Of a stretch of DNA of 64,000 nucleotides, positions 34,095 to 42,606 are shown piece by piece; position 1 is the stretch's first letter, and each line of letters starts with the position of its first letter. The position numbers were made by a program, and so were the translations under genes. Below the pieces are notes generated by a model. That model had not been told where the DNA came from. It searched no databases and worked only from the letters and a program-made list of their open reading frames with translations. Origin of the DNA: Hyphomonadaceae bacterium (GTDB lineage Bacteria; Pseudomonadota; Alphaproteobacteria; Caulobacterales; Maricaulaceae); assembly GCA_013001295.1 (NCBI GenBank), contig JABDMW010000050.1:62001-126000 (forward strand), in the 5' to 3' direction.

Positions 34095-34463
34095 TTATGC
34101 GCGTTTTGCCATCTTCTCGGCTTTCGCCGCCAATTGACGGGCACGAACCCGTTCAAAACTGTCGAGCGCATCAAGCGCGATCCGTAGATCAGCACTGAGA
34201 TCTTTATTCTGGCGATCAATATCCTCAAGCGTTTGAATAAGGTTTTCTTTGCGCTTGATCACAGAACTCGCGTACGAGCCATAACTCACATAGCCCTCTT
34301 TTTGAGCATTCGGATCGACTTCGGCCTCCGGAACACTTTCATTGAGCTTGCGCATCTGACGCTGTAAATCTTCCCGCGTCGCATCAAGCACAGCGATGCG
34401 CTTTTGTAAGTCCGCGATCGCAAAACGCGTCGAGCGGACACTCTTATCCATTGAATGCTTCAT
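34095..34463 (-). CDS. fliJ: Flagellar export protein FliJ-like coiled coil
   Basis: 122 residues from the ATG at 34463, which has GGTGGA 7 bases upstream; frames starting further out lack this. The protein is almost all helix with heptad character (STRFAIADLQKRIAVLDAT, then IKRKENLIQTLEDIDRQNK), and ends in a basic coil (RVRARQLAAKAEKMAKRA). The central YVSYGSYASSVIKRKENL segment is typical of alphaproteobacterial FliJ. FliJ sits in the FliI ATPase ring and helps flagellar export. It is divergent from ctrA, which controls flagellar genes, and the shared 247-base region probably carries both promoters. Confidence 0.75.
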   Translation of the reverse strand: MKHSMDKSVRSTRFAIADLQKRIAVLDATREDLQRQMRKLNESVPEAEVDPNAQKEGYVSYGSYASSVIKRKENLIQTLEDIDRQNKDLSADLRIALDALDSFERVRARQLAAKAEKMAKRA

Positions 34464-34618
34464 TTTTTTCCACCTATACCCTAACAAATGGCGTTTTCGC
34501 CTTGGGGGTTTGGTACACATTTAAGATTACATTCTGGTAAACGAATGTGAAAAAAAATTCAGCTGTCCTGTGGTGAACCAAAAATAAGCTGATTTTATAC
34601 TCAATTTGATAAACATCA

Positions 34619-34633
34619 TTAACATTTGATTTA
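34619..34633. promoter_or_regulatory. Candidate CtrA box in the fliJ-ctrA intergenic region
   Basis: TTAA, seven bases, TTTA: one mismatch from the consensus TTAA-N7-TTAA. It lies 78 bases upstream of the ctrA start, suggesting autoregulation and control of the divergent fliJ. Confidence 0.5.
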
Positions 34634-34636
34634 CGG

Positions 34637-34694
34637 GATTCACCTAAGACTTACTTTCAGTTAACTTATCTAAGGATAATGTCGTAAGTGATTC
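34637..34694. promoter_or_regulatory. Two GAnTC (CcrM-type) methylation sites before ctrA
   Basis: GATTC occurs at 34637-34641 and again at 34690-34694, the first 3 bases after the candidate CtrA box. In Caulobacter the ctrA P1 promoter is gated by methylation at a GAnTC site; the same arrangement is suggested here. The second site lies just before the GGGAGG ribosome site. Confidence 0.5.
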
Positions 34695-34710
34695 GCCTGG
34701 GAGGGAAAAT

Positions 34711-35406
34711 ATGCGTGTACTTCTAATTGAAGATGATACCGCCACAGCACAAAGTATCGAGTTGATGCTCAAGTCTGAAGGATTTAATGTCTACACCACC
34801 GATCTGGGGGAAGAAGGCGTAGATCTCGGAAAATTGTATGATTACGATATTATTCTATTGGATCTCAATTTGCCGGATATGCCCGGATTTGACGTCTTAA
34901 AGACACTGAGACTGGCAAAAATCAATACGCCGATCTTCATTCTTTCAGGAACGTCCGACATTGAGACAAAAGTTAGAGGTCTGGGCACTGGCGCAGACGA
35001 CTATATGACCAAGCCATTCCACAAAGATGAGCTTGTCGCGCGCATTCACGCCGTTGTCCGCCGCTCTAAAGGCCACGCCCAATCCATTATCCGCACTGGC
35101 GAAATCGGTGTTAATCTCGACGCCAAAACCGTTGAAGTCGCAGATCACCGCGTTCACTTGACCGGCAAAGAATACCAAATGCTTGAGCTTCTCTCATTGC
35201 GTAAAGGCACAACCCTGACCAAAGAAATGTTCCTAAACCACCTTTATGGCGGCATGGATGAGCCCGAATTGAAGATTATTGATGTCTTTATATGTAAGCT
35301 TCGCAAGAAATTGGCGGCGGCAACAGGCGGCGAACATTATATTGAAACGGTATGGGGTCGCGGTTACGTGCTACGCGAACCAAACCGCGAAAAGATCAGC
35401 GCATAA
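34711..35406 (+). CDS. ctrA: Cell-cycle master response regulator CtrA
   Basis: 231 residues, the same length as Caulobacter CtrA. The receiver domain (1-120) has Asp8/Asp9, phospho-acceptor Asp51 in [11 protein letters not shown] and the KPFHKDEL lysine. The OmpR-type winged helix (about 125-225) has [32 protein letters not shown], split by the turn, and [15 protein letters not shown] with [16 protein letters not shown] lies 7 bases before the ATG. CtrA-P activates or represses cell-cycle, pilus and flagellar genes and receives phosphate from ChpT, encoded 3 kb away on the opposite strand. Confidence 0.95.
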
Positions 35407-35424
35407 CTAACTCCCATCCATGTT

Positions 35425-35462
35425 ATGTAAAAAAAGCCCCGATATTGGGGCTTTTTTTACGA
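35425..35462. terminator. Bidirectional terminator between ctrA and the CheR-like gene
   Basis: AAAAAGCCCC (35431-35440) pairs with GGGGCTTTTT (35447-35456) around GATATT, flanked by A bases on the left and T bases on the right. It serves rightward ctrA and the converging leftward gene. Confidence 0.9.
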
Positions 35463-35483
35463 TCACAGTAAAATTCTTTTGAG

Positions 35484-36476
35484 TTACGCGGCGGGTTTCC
35501 CTTTTTGTTTCGGCGCTTCCACTGGCTCTTTTCGAGCGCCTGAGGTAATTTCTTTTAAGGATTTTTTGACCACTTTTTCCTGTAACAACATTTTTTCGTA
35601 CGGATTTGCAAGATCCATTTCATCTTCAACCTCTGACGGCCTCACTTTATCCGACAGCTTTAAAAAACACCCAGGCGCAACAGGGACAGAATTAAATCCG
35701 TAATTGACTTTGCCAATACCTTCATTTGTACCCAAAAGCAGGTAACCGTGAGGCGATACCATTGAGCTTAAACTGCGCAAGACGCGGACAATTGCCGGCG
35801 GCGAAAATTGACGCATACGGCCCCTGAACATCACGATCTGGTAGGTGCCTAAATGATCCGTATTTGAGAGGAGGTTGTGATCAGTGAAATTAACGCAGTC
35901 CCGAATGGTTTTTTTAACAACCCAGTCCTCGCCGTCGCGGTCGAAATATTCGATCAAGTGACGAATTGGCAGACCGCGCTGAACTTCAAAATGCGTGAAC
36001 CGGCCAGATTTAGCCTGTTCCAACGCCCATGACGGGTAATCAACGCCTGTTATCTCAATCTCCATCTCCGGAAAGACGTGTGCCATCCGATCAACAAGAA
36101 AAGCTGTACTATAAACCTCCTGCCCGCTTGAACACCCATAGGACAAGATTTTGATTTTTTTACCACGGTAGCGTCGATGAAGCGCGGGCAGCAATTGATC
36201 ACCCAGCAGTTCAAATCCCTTACGATCATCAAAAAACCGGTTCGCCCGCTCAAGCAATGCAGAAACAACATGAATTGCCAAGCGGGTCTGTCCACGTGAG
36301 AACAGTTCATGAATCATATCGCCGAGGTTTTCAAACCCTTCCTTGCGTGCCAAAGCAGACAATCGGGTTTCGATCAGAAAAGTGTGATCCTTGCCCAAAT
36401 TTACACCCGCGAGCTCCAAAGTCAGGCGTTTTAAAGCCATATAATAGCTGGGGCGTAATGAGAGAGCACCGCTCAT
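35484..36476 (-). CDS. Divergent CheR-like SAM methyltransferase
   Basis: 330 residues from the ATG at 36476; an upstream TTG would run into the preceding gene. The CheR plan is visible: an N-terminal helical part (AGVNLGKDHTFLIETRLSALA), then a SAM fold with ILSYGCSSGQEVYSTAFLVDR (about 110-130) and ITGVDYPSWALEQAKSGRF. Key CheR sites differ: FFRD is FFDD, the SAM-site Glu of GEE-PYS is Gln (GQEVYS), and RNVLIYF is RGRMRQF. A charged C-terminal tail ends in EAPKQKGKPAA. With no receptors nearby, methylation of chemoreceptors is doubtful. Last gene of the chpT train. Confidence 0.75.
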   Translation of the reverse strand: MSGALSLRPSYYMALKRLTLELAGVNLGKDHTFLIETRLSALARKEGFENLGDMIHELFSRGQTRLAIHVVSALLERANRFFDDRKGFELLGDQLLPALHRRYRGKKIKILSYGCSSGQEVYSTAFLVDRMAHVFPEMEIEITGVDYPSWALEQAKSGRFTHFEVQRGLPIRHLIEYFDRDGEDWVVKKTIRDCVNFTDHNLLSNTDHLGTYQIVMFRGRMRQFSPPAIVRVLRSLSSMVSPHGYLLLGTNEGIGKVNYGFNSVPVAPGCFLKLSDKVRPSEVEDEMDLANPYEKMLLQEKVVKKSLKEITSGARKEPVEAPKQKGKPAA

Positions 36477-36480
36477 CGGG

Positions 36481-36858
36481 TTAAACCAATCCTGCTTCCA
36501 TAAATTTGGACTCAATGATGTCGCTATCGAAAGGTTTCATGACATATTCATCCGCACCGGCTTCCAGAGCCTCAGCGATTTTTGTTACGTCTCTTTCAGC
36601 GGTACAGAACACAACAACCGGATCATCGCCGCCCGGCTCTTTGCGCAATGCCTTTAAAAACGATAAACCGTCCATGACGGGCATATTCCAATCAAGCAAG
36701 ATAGCGTCCGGCATAGATGAACGACACAGGCTGATTGCCTCTCGTCCATCCCCTGCCTCACTCGGTTCAAATTTAAGATCGCGCAAAATACGTGTCGCTA
36801 CACGGCGGATCATTTTTGAATCGTCCACGATTAAACAAGTTTTTAAAGCTTCAAGCAT
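36481..36858 (-). CDS. Single-domain CheY-like response regulator
   Basis: 125 residues from the ATG at 36858, with GGAGG 9 bases upstream. The acidic pair is Asp12/Asp13 in LIVDDSKMIRRVATRIL, the phospho-acceptor is Asp56 in LLDWNMPVMDG, and Lys108 lies in YVMKPFDSDII. All receiver residues needed for phosphorylation are present, and there is no output domain. Its start overlaps the end of the CheA-like gene by 8 bases (ATGCTTGA), so the two are translationally coupled. It may be another target of ChpT, or a partner of the CheA-like or CheR-like proteins. Both are inference. Confidence 0.88.
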   Translation of the reverse strand: MLEALKTCLIVDDSKMIRRVATRILRDLKFEPSEAGDGREAISLCRSSMPDAILLDWNMPVMDGLSFLKALRKEPGGDDPVVVFCTAERDVTKIAEALEAGADEYVMKPFDSDIIESKFMEAGLV

Positions 36859-37870
36859 AGCCAGACACCTCCACATCTCCAGTCGTATTTCTAGGAGATA
36901 ATGGCGCTTTTGCGATTGTTCCGCCTTTCATTGGCATTTTGATATACAAGGTATGTCTCGAGTTCAAATTATCAGACAAAGCCAAATTATTTATCGAAAA
37001 TGTGCCGCCCTTTTGCTTGAGTTTTAACAGTTGAGTTCGGAATTCAAGCTGGGAATTTCCGGTTAATTTAATTTCCGCCCCCATCCAACTTATCGAAAAG
37101 AGCAATTGCCCTGCCCGCATTTGTCCGGTTAGAGAAATCTGTGGTGTCACGCCAATCAAATTTTTCGATGGACGTGGAATACCGTGTCGAAGAATGGCAA
37201 GACATGAAATTTCCAGTGACTCTTGCATAAATTCGGCGAAATGAAATTCGAGGGCGTCAAAGTCGGCCGCATATGAAACAGTTACAATCTTCCCGCAATG
37301 ACGCGCTTCGCTTAAAACTGCATTACTGACAGGCTGAATCAGTGCATCCAATGACATGGTCTGTTGATTTACCGTTTCTGGCTCCTCGACCAAAACCGGC
37401 TGCATAAGCGTTTTCAAGGCGGTCCGTAGATTATCATTTTGGACCTTGTGAACGAGCGGTTGTAACGTTTGGGCTGCTTTTGCGTGCGCCTCTGAAAGAC
37501 CCAAATTAGCCTTGGCCGTGTCCGGTACCGTGATGTCAGGGTTATGAATAATTTCTGCAAACTCTGGATCTATTTCAAACAGACCATCGGCATATAGGTT
37601 TATTAGACGTTTTAATTCGACCAATGGCGCGATCATGCGCGGTTCATTGTCGTCCGCCAGACGAGATAATACATCTTCACACAGAATGGCGGCCCGATAT
37701 ACACCTCTGGCCTGAACGCTAATCGCAGTAGATTTGATAGCGTCTAAAGTTTGTGCCGACTTTTCGATACGATTTAGTCTATCGTCCGTACGCGGCGCAC
37801 CCCAAATCTGTTCCAAAAAACTCATTTCCTGGGTGGCTGTTTTTACAAAATGGCGTTCGTCAATATACAT
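36851..37870 (-). CDS. Degenerate CheA-like protein, probable pseudokinase
   Basis: 339 residues. The N-terminus (about 15-110) is helical like an Hpt/P1 domain, but at the place of the phospho-His motif HTLKGS stands DAIKST, with Asp43 for His. Residues about 173-312 resemble a CheA-type ATPase fold: LDALIQPVSNAVLSEARHCG, HFAEFMQESLEISCLAILRHGI in place of the vNAidHGI N-box with its Asn missing, no DxGxG motif, and a final LKQKGGTFSIN, HTLYIKMPM. There is no CheW-like domain. It probably does not bind ATP and may act as a scaffold. It lies between chpT and the response regulator. The similarity is by eye and remote. Confidence 0.55.
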   Translation of the reverse strand: MYIDERHFVKTATQEMSFLEQIWGAPRTDDRLNRIEKSAQTLDAIKSTAISVQARGVYRAAILCEDVLSRLADDNEPRMIAPLVELKRLINLYADGLFEIDPEFAEIIHNPDITVPDTAKANLGLSEAHAKAAQTLQPLVHKVQNDNLRTALKTLMQPVLVEEPETVNQQTMSLDALIQPVSNAVLSEARHCGKIVTVSYAADFDALEFHFAEFMQESLEISCLAILRHGIPRPSKNLIGVTPQISLTGQMRAGQLLFSISWMGAEIKLTGNSQLEFRTQLLKLKQKGGTFSINNLALSDNLNSRHTLYIKMPMKGGTIAKAPLSPRNTTGDVEVSGYA

Positions 37871-37879
37871 CGGTTATCC

Positions 37880-37922
37880 GGGGGCAATGCAACCGTCAGC
37901 ATCTCATAGGCTGACGTCCCCC
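37880..37922 (-). promoter_or_regulatory. Two-part stem-loop in the leader of the CheA-like gene
   Basis: An outer GGGGG/CCCCC stem (37880-37884 with 37918-37922) encloses an exact seven-base stem CGTCAGC/GCTGACG (37894-37900 with 37910-37916). It ends 9 bases before the ATG. No T run follows, so it may control translation or RNA stability. Confidence 0.45.
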
Positions 37923-37999
37923 AAATGTGACCGGAATTGGTTAAAGCCAAATAAATAAATAGCGGTCAATAGAGCGAAAATAGTATGAAATACGGGTTT

Positions 38000-38650
38000 T
38001 TAGTTGGACAAGTGCGCAGACAAAGTCACAGTTTCATCCTCAATCGACGCTGAAACTTTGCCATTATTTTCGCGTGCAATAATTCCCGTATAAAAAGGTT
38101 GGACACTTCGCCCGTCAAACCCGTCTTCGGGGGCTCCCCCGGCCAATGTTTTGACAATGTTTGGATCCAAACGCGCTTTTGGCCCCGTGCAGACCAATTT
38201 AATCGTGGACAGATCATCGCTATTCGTGGCTTGAACATCCATAACTCCTCCGCGCGGAATGACCTGCATTCCCAACATAACAAGGTTTAAAAGAACGCGC
38301 GCAGCGGGCTTATCCAGACCGTCTACCTCGACATTCCACTTAATATCGACCTTTCCGCCATCGAATACGTTCAGGCTTAATTTTTTGAGCTCATCGCAAG
38401 AAATAACGCCGGGAGCTGATCCGCCTGCCCCAAACGCAAGGCGCAAAAATTGCAGCTTTGCGCTCGCTTGCCCAGCACTGAGTTTAATCAGTTCCATAGC
38501 ATCATCGCGCATGTCCAAATTGCTATCGTCTTCGAAAACTTCTAAAGCCGCAGTTAAAGCCCCGACCGGACTGACCAGATCATGGCAGATACGTGCGCAC
38601 AAGAGTGCCGCCAGATTAGCGGCGGTGAGTTTTACTTTAACATCGGACAT
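38000..38650 (-). CDS. chpT: Histidine phosphotransferase ChpT
   Basis: 216 residues, the usual length. The phospho-acceptor His23 lies in LLCARICHDLVSPVGAL, the start of the first helix of the dimerisation hairpin. The second part is a degenerate histidine-kinase-like fold without ATP-binding motifs (AARVLLNLVMLGMQVIPRGG, GPKARLDPNIVKTLAGG), as in ChpT, and ends in VQPFYTGIIARENNG. GAGGGG lies just before the ATG. ChpT moves phosphate from CckA to CtrA and CpdR. CtrA is encoded nearby. CckA is not in this window. Confidence 0.93.
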   Translation of the reverse strand: MSDVKVKLTAANLAALLCARICHDLVSPVGALTAALEVFEDDSNLDMRDDAMELIKLSAGQASAKLQFLRLAFGAGGSAPGVISCDELKKLSLNVFDGGKVDIKWNVEVDGLDKPAARVLLNLVMLGMQVIPRGGVMDVQATNSDDLSTIKLVCTGPKARLDPNIVKTLAGGAPEDGFDGRSVQPFYTGIIARENNGKVSASIEDETVTLSAHLSN

Positions 38651-38723: not shown

Positions 38724-39110
38724 TTATTTGACGGTTTGCCATTCGCCGTTCGACAATCGGACTTTCTCGCCCCGCCTGGCTTTGGCGACGAGCTTTTCTC
38801 CGCTCACGCCAGCAACGTTTTCAGGCGATGTTCCTGTCTCACGAGCAAGCGACGTGTAAACCGACTTACGGCGAATATTGATCTCGTTCATTGCGGCTTC
38901 TATTTCCGCAGACGCACTTCCGCTCACCAGTGCCAAATACCCGTCAATGGTTTCACCTACGATGCCTTGCTCTTTCGCAGCGTCAACAATTTTCTTTGCT
39001 GCTCCAACCTGAGCTGTTGCCGTCGGTGCGGTGACACCAAGCATTGCCATACCACCTAACAAGACAGTGGCGCTAAATGCAGCAGTAATAATTTTTGTGC
39101 CAAAAGTCAT
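38724..39110 (-). CDS. ydbL: YdbL-family periplasmic protein (DUF1318)
   Basis: 128 residues from the ATG at 39110, with AGGAGG 8 bases upstream; the first 34 residues are a signal peptide (TFGTKIITAAFSATVLLGG, then APTATA). The mature part matches YdbL: AKEQGIVGETIDGYLALV, MNEINIRRKSVYTSLARETG, VAGVSGEKLVAKARRGE and a final W. In E. coli YdbL works with YdbH and YnbE, keeping the YnbE lipoprotein from faulty assembly. The order here, ydbH-ynbE-ydbL, is the same. Confidence 0.85.
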   Translation of the reverse strand: MTFGTKIITAAFSATVLLGGMAMLGVTAPTATAQVGAAKKIVDAAKEQGIVGETIDGYLALVSGSASAEIEAAMNEINIRRKSVYTSLARETGTSPENVAGVSGEKLVAKARRGEKVRLSNGEWQTVK

Positions 39111-39120
39111 AATGGCCTCC

Positions 39121-39309
39121 TTAGAAAATATCCGGGTTATCGGCGAGCAAATCTTCGACGTCCTTATCCAGTCTGACCCTGACTTCTTGATCAATTTTTA
39201 CATTTAAATTGATCACGATTGGGTCTTTTGGCGCGACGATTTGCACCTTGGGAGCACACGCGCCCAAGACCAACAAACCAAGTAAAGTTATCGAAACAGT
39301 TTGTCTCAT
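39121..39309 (-). CDS. ynbE: YnbE-family outer-membrane lipoprotein
   Basis: 62 residues. The lipobox is VLGAC (Cys18). The mature part has VQIVAPKDPIVINLNVKIDQEVRVRLDKDVEDLL, split about the middle, the signature of YnbE. It is known in E. coli to pair with the C-terminus of YdbH and to continue its groove to the outer membrane. Its stop lies 11 bases before the ydbL start. Confidence 0.88.
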   Translation of the reverse strand: MRQTVSITLLGLLVLGACAPKVQIVAPKDPIVINLNVKIDQEVRVRLDKDVEDLLADNPDIF

Positions 39310-39426: not shown

Positions 39427-42400
39427 TTATTCTACGTCAACAGCTTCCCGACGTCGATCAACTATTGTCTTCAAATGCTTCTGGGAATCAAACGCGCCTA
39501 CTGACTCCCTCACGATATTCCCTAACTCACCAGATACCGACACATCAAATTCAAATGCCGTGCCCGCCAGGAGGTCCGGGTTTCGGCCGCCGAATACCAT
39601 TCTGAGGGTCATTTCACCGTCCAGCGGCCCATTGATAATCGCTTCAAGTTCTTTGTATTCAAAATTTTCCAGGGCTTTGAACGCAAATCCGGTTTCAGAC
39701 CCTGCAAATTGATCTCCAAGATAAAAAGGTTGTTTGGTATCCTTTGCGAACGTATCGATACCTTGATTTCGGTATCGAATCACACCGCCGTCCTTGATCG
39801 CCAAAATACCGTTATCAATCTGAACATCCACTCCATTGATAACCGCAGGGAGTTGTCCGGAAATTTGGCCTGTTCCAGACAGACTTCCATTGCCAATATT
39901 TTTTAGAATTTTTCCCAGCGACAAATTCTCAACATTAACAATCGCCCGATTTTCGACGTTTCCAAATTTCCATATTAATGGTGAGAGATATATTTTCCCC
40001 TCCCCTTGTTCCTCAGATAATACTGGCCATAACGCTTGATCAATTCGAGCGCCATCTGGGATCAATTCAAATTTTATGATTCCATTTTCAAGCGGAAACC
40101 CCGCATCAAACCCGGCCATTGTCGCCGTTTGCACACCGTCCGTTTCCAGGGGAAACATCGACTTAAACGTCAGTTCCGCAGAAACACCTGAAGCCGGCCC
40201 GACGAGGGTACCAATATCCATATTTTTCAGCGTTGTTTTCCCGTATGACCGCACAGGGCCGCCATTACCGAATTCGAATTGGAATTCGGCTGACGCTTCG
40301 CCACTGACTCCCGCCAATTTCCCGCGCAAGGTCGGTATTAAATATTGAGGCTGCAAACCGCGCGGTGTGAAAACGACTTTCGGAATTGAGACTTGTGCTG
40401 TCCCAATACCTTCTTCTGACCGATAGGTGATATTGATCGGCGTGTTTCTGGTCCTGGGCATTGGCGCAACTGCAGTTCCGGTTAAAGTACCATTTGCCAA
40501 TCTCGCGGTTCCCTCCATAGGCACTTCCGGAATTTCGCCACCCTTCAGTTGAACTGCGCCTGCTTTATAATTGGCTGAAAAATCTTCCGGACGTCCATTC
40601 ATTTCGATGAATAAGTTCGAGACCTGAACATTATCCGTGGCAATTTCGGTTTTTGGACTCGTGATTAAAAACTCTATGCTGCCGTCCTTATATTGCGTGA
40701 CTTTGGCTTGCCCGCCCGGTGTCGTGACATGGGTACCCGGCGACGGGAAATCTTCGGACTTCAGATCGATACCCCCAATGTCCATATTCCATATTTGCGG
40801 ATTCGTTTTAAAATCTGATCTCACATTCAGCGCCTCAAACATCGCGCGTAAATGCCGGTCATCGTCGGGGCTTGAGATATCGGCCCGAACATTTCTAAGA
40901 TTCGCTGTTAAGGGCTGGTCAACGCGGGAACGTCTCAAGACATCTAACCCGTCAACAAGATCAAATGATATATTCTCGGCGCGCCATCCGGTCAGGCTGA
41001 TGAACTCATCCATCTTAATCGTTTGCGCCGGTTCAAATAACATTGAAAACCGATCACCATTGGTTGCGACGACGATATCGCCACCGGCAACGAGATTTTT
41101 TGTCCGCCCTCCCGGTAATTGCCCGTCATATTTTATAGCTCCATTTATCGCGACACGGCTGCCTCTGGAGGAATTGTCGAGTTTCAACTTAATGTCGATA
41201 GGTGCCAAACGGATATCGTCTCCTTTAAAACTACGGGACCAAGTATTTTTACTTTTGACCTGAGCTGAAACGTGCTCAACACCGGATAAAACAAATCCGT
41301 TTTCGCTTCGTCCCTGAACTCTCAAATTCTCTAGATCAAGCCCGCGCGAACTTCGCCAATCAACATGCATATTCATGTCGACGGTTTGTGCAAAGGCATC
41401 AAAGACAACGTCGGGCCCAGCCACGGGCTCGATCACCGCTGATTGGCCATTTGATGTCAGATTGAGCGGCGCATTCAGCTTAACCTCATAGCCTGATCGA
41501 TTTTGGATAAATTGACCTGCTCCATTGGCAGCGAACTGCTCTAAAAATCGATTTCCATTTCTGCGAATTTCGCCGACAAAATGTGTTGCAATTGGCGTTT
41601 TACTCAACGCATTATAGGCAATGGTCCGATCAACCAGTTGAGTGCGCAATCCCGCATCAGTTAGAGAAAAATCGCTTCCGTCCATAACCCAATCGGTTCT
41701 GATAAGATCAAAACTGTTCTGCTCCAAATCGAATTCTGCACTGATTTGGGTATCAAGTTTCGTATGACCTGCGGCGAAAACGGGAAAAACAATGCCGTTT
41801 AACGTTACGTCAAGGTCAGAAATCAATTCGATTTTTTCAGAATCTTCAAAACCGGTTAGTTGCAGATCAACATCTGCCGTCATTGGCCCAAACAAGGCTT
41901 CACGAATACGTGCAGATTGCCAGCTTGTTTGCCCTTTTACGTCCAATTCCCGTTCAGAGTGACGGTCGATATTTCCGATAAATCCGAAATCTATCTCTAT
42001 ATCGTCCTGTGCCATTCGCGCTGATTGCATAAAGATCTGGCTTTGCCATTCAGTTTCAGACTGAATTTGCGCATTTATCCCCGTCACCCCAGCGCCCCAC
42101 GGAGCTGCCCAATTGACGACGCCGTCCTCGATCTCAATGCCGTCTATAGGGACCGAAACAGGTTCAGATTCTTCATTTGTCTCTGGCACCCACCGATCAA
42201 TCACATTCCCATTACTATCGAGAGTCAGACGCAGAATTGGTTTTTTTAGAATGACCTGGTCAACAATACCGGCGCGCAACTTCTCAATCCGATATTTGAC
42301 TATTAATTGGTCTGCAGAAAAAAACTGACCATCCGCATCAGAAAACCGCATGTTTTCAAAAACGGCTTCAGTCCTGGTAATTTCCTTAATATCGAATTTG

Positions 42401-42606
42401 GATTCAATTCCAACTTTGGAAAATTCATTGCGGGCTTGACGTTCAAACAAGCTATATCGATTGAGCCAAAACACCGCAGCAAGAACGATCAACGCAACCG
42501 CGATAAGGAGCAAAGCCCACAAAAATCGTCGGAGCCAGCGACGACGTCTCGGGCCTTCACGCCTTGATTTATCAGTTTTTGTTATAATATCGACCTGATC
42601 TGACAT
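39427..42606 (-). CDS. ydbH: YdbH, AsmA-like inter-membrane phospholipid transport protein
   Basis: 1059 residues, a normal YdbH size. A basic N-terminus (SRREGPRRRRWLRRF) precedes a single anchor helix (about 28-48). The long rest is a repetitive beta-structure expected to form a lipid-conducting groove across the periplasm, with the C-terminal YdbH block near 880-1030 (LENGIIKFELIPDG, YLSPLIWKFGNVE, FKALENFEYKELEAIINGPLDGEMTLRMVFGGRNPDLL split over strands). YdbH, TamB and YhdP jointly carry phospholipids to the outer membrane in E. coli. First gene of the ydbH-ynbE-ydbL operon, followed by chpT. Confidence 0.9.
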   Translation of the reverse strand: MSDQVDIITKTDKSRREGPRRRRWLRRFLWALLLIAVALIVLAAVFWLNRYSLFERQARNEFSKVGIESKFDIKEITRTEAVFENMRFSDADGQFFSADQLIVKYRIEKLRAGIVDQVILKKPILRLTLDSNGNVIDRWVPETNEESEPVSVPIDGIEIEDGVVNWAAPWGAGVTGINAQIQSETEWQSQIFMQSARMAQDDIEIDFGFIGNIDRHSERELDVKGQTSWQSARIREALFGPMTADVDLQLTGFEDSEKIELISDLDVTLNGIVFPVFAAGHTKLDTQISAEFDLEQNSFDLIRTDWVMDGSDFSLTDAGLRTQLVDRTIAYNALSKTPIATHFVGEIRRNGNRFLEQFAANGAGQFIQNRSGYEVKLNAPLNLTSNGQSAVIEPVAGPDVVFDAFAQTVDMNMHVDWRSSRGLDLENLRVQGRSENGFVLSGVEHVSAQVKSKNTWSRSFKGDDIRLAPIDIKLKLDNSSRGSRVAINGAIKYDGQLPGGRTKNLVAGGDIVVATNGDRFSMLFEPAQTIKMDEFISLTGWRAENISFDLVDGLDVLRRSRVDQPLTANLRNVRADISSPDDDRHLRAMFEALNVRSDFKTNPQIWNMDIGGIDLKSEDFPSPGTHVTTPGGQAKVTQYKDGSIEFLITSPKTEIATDNVQVSNLFIEMNGRPEDFSANYKAGAVQLKGGEIPEVPMEGTARLANGTLTGTAVAPMPRTRNTPINITYRSEEGIGTAQVSIPKVVFTPRGLQPQYLIPTLRGKLAGVSGEASAEFQFEFGNGGPVRSYGKTTLKNMDIGTLVGPASGVSAELTFKSMFPLETDGVQTATMAGFDAGFPLENGIIKFELIPDGARIDQALWPVLSEEQGEGKIYLSPLIWKFGNVENRAIVNVENLSLGKILKNIGNGSLSGTGQISGQLPAVINGVDVQIDNGILAIKDGGVIRYRNQGIDTFAKDTKQPFYLGDQFAGSETGFAFKALENFEYKELEAIINGPLDGEMTLRMVFGGRNPDLLAGTAFEFDVSVSGELGNIVRESVGAFDSQKHLKTIVDRRREAVDVE

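Follow-up and report, generated by a model that had tools for sequence, protein, structure and literature searches.

A reduced chemotaxis operon behind chpT in a marine-type alphaproteobacterium may serve a purpose other than chemotaxis

The histidine phosphotransferase ChpT belongs to the CckA-ChpT-CtrA relay and passes phosphate to two described recipients, CtrA and CpdR (PMC2877005). In Caulobacter crescentus, chpT is CC3470 (PMC3433190), and the two genes that follow it by number, CC3471 and CC3472, are listed as CheYIV and CheR (PMC2529317). Here we describe a related locus in 64,000 nucleotides of contig JABDMW010000050.1 (positions 62,001 to 126,000, forward strand; Hyphomonadaceae bacterium, assembly GCA_013001295.1), a stretch hereafter called the window, in which chpT is followed by a CheA-like gene, cheY and a cheR-like gene. 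By gene number, the Caulobacter counterpart shares with the window chpT, an intact CheY and a CheR; unlike the window, it has no CheA-like gene at this place, and Caulobacter has, elsewhere in the genome, complete chemotaxis clusters together with receptors and CheYs that bind the motor.

DivL, a pseudo-kinase regulator of CckA that is related to sensor kinases and not to CheA, is a precedent for a degenerate kinase in the same relay. CheA3 of Rhodobacter (Cereibacter) sphaeroides, which presumably keeps its P5 domain, differs in this respect from the CheA-like protein of the window, which has none. CheA3 resembles that protein in having a kinase domain judged non-functional and Hpt domains lacking the His, but it retains one phosphorylated Hpt (PMC10782961) and works inside a receptor cluster, where its partner is the kinase CheA4 (PMC6829392), neither of which applies to the window protein. 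A precedent for a receiver-like regulator in the relay is the protein described in PMC9430884. Where CheAs of alphaproteobacteria that carry two CheW domains have been studied, they fall into the F5 class (PMC10782961). By position, the window module descends from such an operon, chpT-cheA-cheW-cheY-cheB-cheR in relatives, the F5 label of this ancestor following the description in that paper and not a class test; it differs from an F5 system in lacking a receptor, CheW and an active CheA, and its locus holds no CheB.

The first-pass annotation of this DNA had considered the locus the best candidate for an undescribed signalling module. This is only partly so; CC3471 and CC3472 are already on record beside chpT. 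CC3471 has been deleted jointly with the other eleven cheY genes, twelve in all (PMC7534056), and is probably, from its gene number, CCNA_03585 of strain NA1000, a protein that is described as a cheY receiver and that RtrC activates (PMC9648850). A strain without all three CheRs, there called "chemoreceptor-dependent methyltransferases", reverses less often, CC3472 not being isolated from the other two (PMC5677366). Among the literature matches listed, which leave subscription journals mostly uncovered, no study deals with CC3471 or CC3472 individually, nor with the CheA-like protein or the module. We propose, with a probability of about 0.5, that the locus is a reduced che operon retained for a non-chemotactic purpose, as a receptor-independent, CheY-centred and chpT-linked module. 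The evidence below suggests that former chemotaxis parts of a marine-type bacterium now serve another role.

Gene order around chpT and origin of the module

In the window, ctrA (34711-35406, plus strand), encoding the cell-cycle response regulator, and chpT (38000-38650, minus strand) are convergent and separated by 2.6 kb, with the CheA-like gene, cheY and the cheR-like gene between them, as first annotated. Both calls exceed their NCBIfam cut-offs, CtrA with 423.4 bits against NF045991 (cut-off 350) and ChpT with 242.7 bits against NF046025 (cut-off 225); ChpT is also the sole PF10090 match in the window genome (E 2.7e-34). Downstream of chpT, on the minus strand, lie in order the CheA-like gene (36851-37870; 339 amino acids; identified by an alignment-based CheA match and a structure model), cheY (36481-36858; a single receiver domain, PF00072, 2.2e-27; best start ATG 36858) and the cheR-like gene (35484-36476; 330 amino acids from ATG 36476; SAM (S-adenosylmethionine)-binding domain, PF01739, 2.2e-34). 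Because cheY starts 8 bases before the CheA-like gene ends, and its stop is 4 bases away from the best start of cheR (the cheR frame being open to TTG 36515), the three genes are probably translated from one message. No cheW, cheB, receptor or fliI gene was found in the locus. The absence of the first three agrees with the earlier annotation, and extends genome-wide for receptors and CheW; no genome-wide search was made for CheB.

The chpT neighbourhoods were compared under strict gene-recognition rules in an order sample of 59 genomes and a class sample of 60, the latter drawn from 128 genomes matching PF10090, mostly from the better-scoring ones. A complete set of cheA, cheW, cheY, cheB and cheR follows chpT in 23 of the 60 class loci, with ctrA convergent on the far side of the set in 15 of those 23, and six further loci fall short of a recognised CheW only. 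No che gene is recognised after chpT in 18 class loci, and ctrA is still convergent in 10 of these. The proximity of ctrA and chpT, which had been taken as remarkable, is therefore ancestral and common in alphaproteobacteria. In the order sample, 13 loci hold all five che genes, 26 (plus one on a short contig) hold cheY-cheR without cheA, the Caulobacter layout, three hold CheA-like-cheY-cheR, three hold cheY only, and 12 (plus one short) hold no che gene. One full operon checked with Pfam encodes a CheA with Hpt, dimerisation and ATPase domains, two CheW stretches and a receiver, followed by CheW, CheB and CheR. Taken together, the three genes of the window derive from a standard che operon and not from a fresh recruitment of partners.

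In Mesorhizobium and other rhizobial loci (L221-L257), chpT and ctrA are convergent with no che gene recognised between them. In a further set of 80 named loci, some from the same genomes as other sample loci (e.g. L064/L189, L066/L187), 28 have no che gene after chpT (four more are on short contigs), and ctrA is convergent in 25 of the 28.

The CheA-like, CheR-like and CheY proteins

As a single sequence, the CheA-like protein gives no significant Pfam or NCBIfam match, and a single-sequence search of 289 class genomes returned only the protein itself, with no plasmid match. Since it is too diverged for such searches, its relatives were sought by chpT gene order and then by alignment. Residue counts below refer to 21 carriers; the CheA-like alignment (A3) holds 20 of them, L182 being omitted for unknown residues. 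This alignment matches CheA with an hhalign probability of 94.4% (E 8.6e-8, 98 columns), which bears out the by-eye naming of the gene, and it also matches PDB CheA chains (best E 4.3e-6). Homology to the P4 catalytic domain is thus present. A relationship to ChpT, raised by two members that weakly touched PF10090, was rejected at an hhalign probability of only 8.7% (E 0.0038, 47 columns of ATPase-like fold).

In the structure model, a four-helix Hpt-like bundle and a short helical hairpin precede a P4-like fold that is predicted to lack the ATP lid; the chain ends there, without a P2, P5 or receiver domain, and the window genome as a whole gives zero matches to PF01584, the P5/CheW-like domain. 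The ATP-site motifs, the N, G1 and G2 boxes, are not conserved in the window protein, RNSCDHG being replaced by LAILRHG and DDG by WMG. No G2 box is seen by eye, the CheA alignment stopping short of that stretch; no invariant or nearly invariant His, as expected of a phospho-acceptor, occurs across the 20 sequences; and the N-terminus has no sequence match to P1. To judge from these losses, the protein is probably kinase-dead. It would fall outside the rule of a CheA domain survey, which reports P1, P3, P4 and P5 in every CheA sequence examined (PMC10782961).

The CheR-like protein of this locus, which has a C-terminal tail, is the sole CheR of the window genome. Our reading of its motifs assumes the residue numbers R98, E129, D154, N212 and Y235 and their roles, R98 and Y235 presumably being catalytic. 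The window and all 21 carriers have lost the IYF Tyr, and the window and 19 of the 21 have lost the FFR Arg. Full-operon CheRs keep both residues (15/15; the CheR and CheY proteins compared come from 15 of 23 named full loci), and the CheRs of chpT-cheY-cheR loci without CheA have lost the Tyr in 23/23 and kept the Arg in 19/23 (23 of the 26 order-sample loci). Such motif loss suggests that the protein lacks the usual enzyme activity. The acidic residues of the SAM pocket, on the other hand, are kept, with Glu in 19 carriers and Asp in the other two at the first position and Asp in all 21 at the second. A pocket retained alongside the universal loss of the Tyr would fit a cryptic SAM sensor, in which the CheR-like protein would bind SAM and relay through CheY, and the adjacency to chpT would be merely historical. 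This idea is quite improbable: His replaces the Asn of the NLL motif in 16 of the 21 carriers, which may weaken binding, and adjacency to chpT persists where adjacency to ctrA does not.

The retained-module interpretation places CheY at its centre, and the window CheY is intact, with the acidic pair, phospho-Asp, Thr and Lys all present. The last three are kept in 21/21 carriers, and the acidic pair is complete in 18/21. CheY is also the best conserved of the three proteins, with 68-89% identity to that of the window in 16 of 17 tabulated carriers and 56% in Algimonas L187; the corresponding range for the CheA-like protein is 27-42% in all 17. Cle proteins, which are c-di-GMP (cyclic di-GMP)-binding CheYs, carry an arginine-rich tail, and a Cle-type assignment was set aside, the end of the window CheY having, by eye, no such tail.

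Carriers, selection and the absence of receptors

A scan with ChpT found the closest named loci in Robiginitomaculum, Hellea, Litorimonas and Algimonas, all of the NCBI family Robiginitomaculaceae, and in other Caulobacterales. CheA-like-cheY-cheR occurs in 20 of the 80 named loci kept, of which 17 were tabulated for identity, methyl-accepting chemotaxis proteins (MCPs) and FliM/FliN (L188, L194 and L202 being left out). Within the window's family, a CheA-like match at E <=1e-20 was obtained in 56 of 137 genomes, in 8 genera; 48 more give weak matches only, mostly in open reading frames (ORFs) of true-CheA size. The gene-order survey proposed in the first-pass annotation upholds the tie to chpT, the module lying within 255 bases of it in the window and in every named carrier (19 of 20) except L192, where 3.2 kb intervene, but not the tie to ctrA, which is convergent in only 4 of the 14 named carriers having 9.9 kb of sequence downstream.

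The ratio of nonsynonymous to synonymous rates (dN/dS) was computed for eight close pairs and is rough because dS is high. For the CheA-like gene it is 0.11-0.16 in six pairs and 0.25 in one, the eighth being saturated; cheR gives 0.02, 0.03, 0.05 and 0.14 with four pairs saturated, and cheY 0.03 and 0.04 with six saturated. A neutral gene would not give this pattern. Three of the pairs (among L189, L196 and L198) join genomes without MCP and without FliM/FliN matches. What is new here is the maintenance under selection, in bacteria that lack receptors, of three proteins of chemotactic origin, two of which have lost their enzyme motifs.

Were the genes instead a decaying remnant, functionless leftovers of a lost chemotaxis operon, one could account for the strong divergence of the CheA-like protein, the enzymatic motifs lost from it and from CheR, the 12 of 59 order loci in which no che gene is recognised after chpT, the in-frame stops within a few CheA-like matches and the occasionally altered acidic pair of CheY. 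Decay would be hard to square with open CheA-like frames of similar size in 52 of the 56 genomes, spread over 8 genera, with dN/dS well under 1 for all three genes wherever computable, and with the high identity of CheY in 16 of 17 carriers, and we regard it as very doubtful.

In line with a retained, receptor-independent module, the window genome (G000, 99.84% complete) gives zero MCP matches (PF00015), and PF01584, which would reveal CheW, has zero matches in G000, G304 and G314. No MCP match was found in 49 of the 56 carriers; MCPs occur in 7/56 carriers versus 64/81 other genomes of the family, and in 6/30 versus 54/65 high-quality genomes (Fisher tests, p 4.6e-15 and p 4.6e-9, kinship ignored). 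One of the 71 MCP genomes (G443) scores under the family cut-off, and some absences may be gaps because many of the 56 carriers are draft genomes. Among the 17 named carriers tested, no MCP match was found in 14, and in 11 FliM/FliN matches were missing as well, including the isolates Hellea balneolensis DSM 19091 (L181) and Litorimonas cladophorae KCTC 23968 (L189), the presence of flagella being judged from FliM/FliN only. Since 49/56 carriers are without MCP, 11/17 are without MCP and FliM/FliN, and dN/dS is below 1, chemotaxis cannot be the module's job in most carriers. Ordinary chemotaxis, which the first-pass annotation had named as a counter-explanation, would leave these proteins no receptor to serve in the window genome.

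The carrier G309, of Algimonas type, has two PF01584 matches. Its MCP lies, by eye, in a separate chemosensory cluster (L261 3381-13003) that also holds a CheA-sized gene and genes resembling cheR and cheB (CheB by eye), the receptor being 1057 amino acids long.

A remaining link to motility is conceivable, in which CheY, phosphorylated by another kinase, would tune the flagellar motor with the help of the other two proteins. The window genome does hold a flagellar cluster (L258 4331-19356: FliF, FliP, FliG, MotA, MotB and FliM), and homologues of CheY work at the motor in Caulobacter (PMC7534056). In addition, G294, with a chpT-cheY-cheR locus and no MCP or CheW, keeps the N-terminal FliM peptide, so that its CheY may still reach the motor and receptor-free motor control may exist there. 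Nevertheless we consider residual motor control unlikely for the module, because most named carriers tested lack FliM/FliN matches, because G000 has no CheW-bearing CheA, and because the N-terminal NQDEID peptide of FliM, read from the sequences in 8/8 relatives, G294 among them, is absent in G000 and G304. The FliM of the window genome has diverged strongly, scoring 26.6 bits where the cut-off is 219.6, with a family match over its C-terminal part only, and the genome possibly holds a different flagellar type.

Flanking genes and a possible role for the module

On the far side of ctrA lies a FliJ-related coiled-coil gene (34095-34466, minus strand), with which the span first annotated had begun; it is a separate gene and not part of the module, and the gene content given from ctrA to chpT stands. 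Its product matches ORFs beside FliI in L071 (6e-20) and L100 (7e-18), the former being FliJ by TIGR02473 and PF02050, and is itself under every family cut-off tried. In L071 and L100 the ctrA side runs on into fliI and fliJ; the window retains just the fliJ relative, without fliI, its usual neighbour, beside it. Identity to the window protein is 66-74% in four carriers, and 37-42% for FliJ-position ORFs of five relatives. L183 and L205 retain the gene though their genomes give no FliM/FliN match, and it may be a second flagellar part retained for another use.

Between cheR and ctrA sits a bidirectional terminator-like hairpin (35427-35460; arms checked), with a 14-bp perfect stem and A/T runs around a G+C core. 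Although absent from the output of a simple terminator scan, it may terminate both transcripts, the ctrA and cheR units perhaps ending separately. Upstream of chpT are a DUF1318 gene (38724-39194) and a YdbH-like gene (39427-42606), a pair that recurs there in several families of the order. Sites matching TTAA-N7-TTAA with one mismatch, as for CtrA, show no excess in the window (30 versus 31.6 expected), one of them lying at 34619, upstream of ctrA; promoter-like sites number 5 versus 7.3 expected, and terminator-like sites 14 versus 6.8.

For the retained che module, we propose the following course. The ancestor would have been chpT-cheA-cheW-cheY-cheB-cheR converging on ctrA, with a CheA bearing two CheW stretches and a receiver. 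In the line of Robiginitomaculum, Hellea, Litorimonas and Algimonas, the receptors, cheW, the cheB of the locus and the kinase activity of CheA would have been lost, and the intact CheY would have become the working part. CheY would be phosphorylated independently of receptors, most likely by ChpT, as a further ChpT receiver alongside CtrA and CpdR, because chpT lies directly upstream and the module stays behind chpT where a convergent ctrA does not. The CheA-like protein, devoid of kinase activity, and the CheR, still methyltransferase-like, would then work by binding CheY or ChpT, so as to hold, localise or read out either of them, and no longer as enzymes. Gene content, reduction, motif loss, an intact CheY, purifying selection, missing receptor matches and, in many carriers, missing FliM/FliN matches can be read at the sequence level; we infer the lack of enzyme activity, the phosphotransfer from ChpT to CheY, the contacts among the partners and an output in the cell cycle or polar development. 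Only tentatively would we go further, to a third ChpT output arm in which ChpT phosphorylates CheY in cells that lack receptors and, in many cases, flagella, with pseudo-CheA and pseudo-CheR as a regulatory scaffold in a budding, stalk-forming cell cycle. A whole chemotaxis operon would then have become a branch of the cell cycle through the loss of its enzymes.

Several observations weigh against the module as proposed. Transfer from ChpT to CheY is suggested by adjacency, which may itself be inherited, and helix 1 of CheY is, by eye, unlike that of CtrA. The second residue of the CheY acidic pair is altered in 3/21 carriers (Asn in L185 and L186, Arg in L187). Support for an Hpt-like fold at the start of the CheA-like protein is weak, Foldseek giving E 0.06 at best, and the full model has a predicted TM-score (pTM) of 0.49. 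The CheA-like match spans in-frame stops in 4/56 genomes (G380, G365, G457 and G419), and dS, at 1.5-2.9 where defined, is near saturation. Seven of the 56 carriers have an MCP; among them G462, G463, G469 and G309 also match in a CheA-sized ORF elsewhere and G465 in an ORF of 399 amino acids, so that MCP carriers may hold a second pathway. Finally, because the carriers are related, receptor loss may represent one or few events and not 49.

If the proposal is true, the locus would illustrate the conversion of a receptor pathway to internal use. The meaning of the chpT-cheY-cheR order, found in Caulobacter too, would become testable where chemotaxis and motility cannot confuse the outcome. The complete che set after chpT (23/60 class loci, 15 of them with ctrA on the far side) is relevant to the suggestion, cited in PMC8116508, that motility was what CtrA originally controlled.

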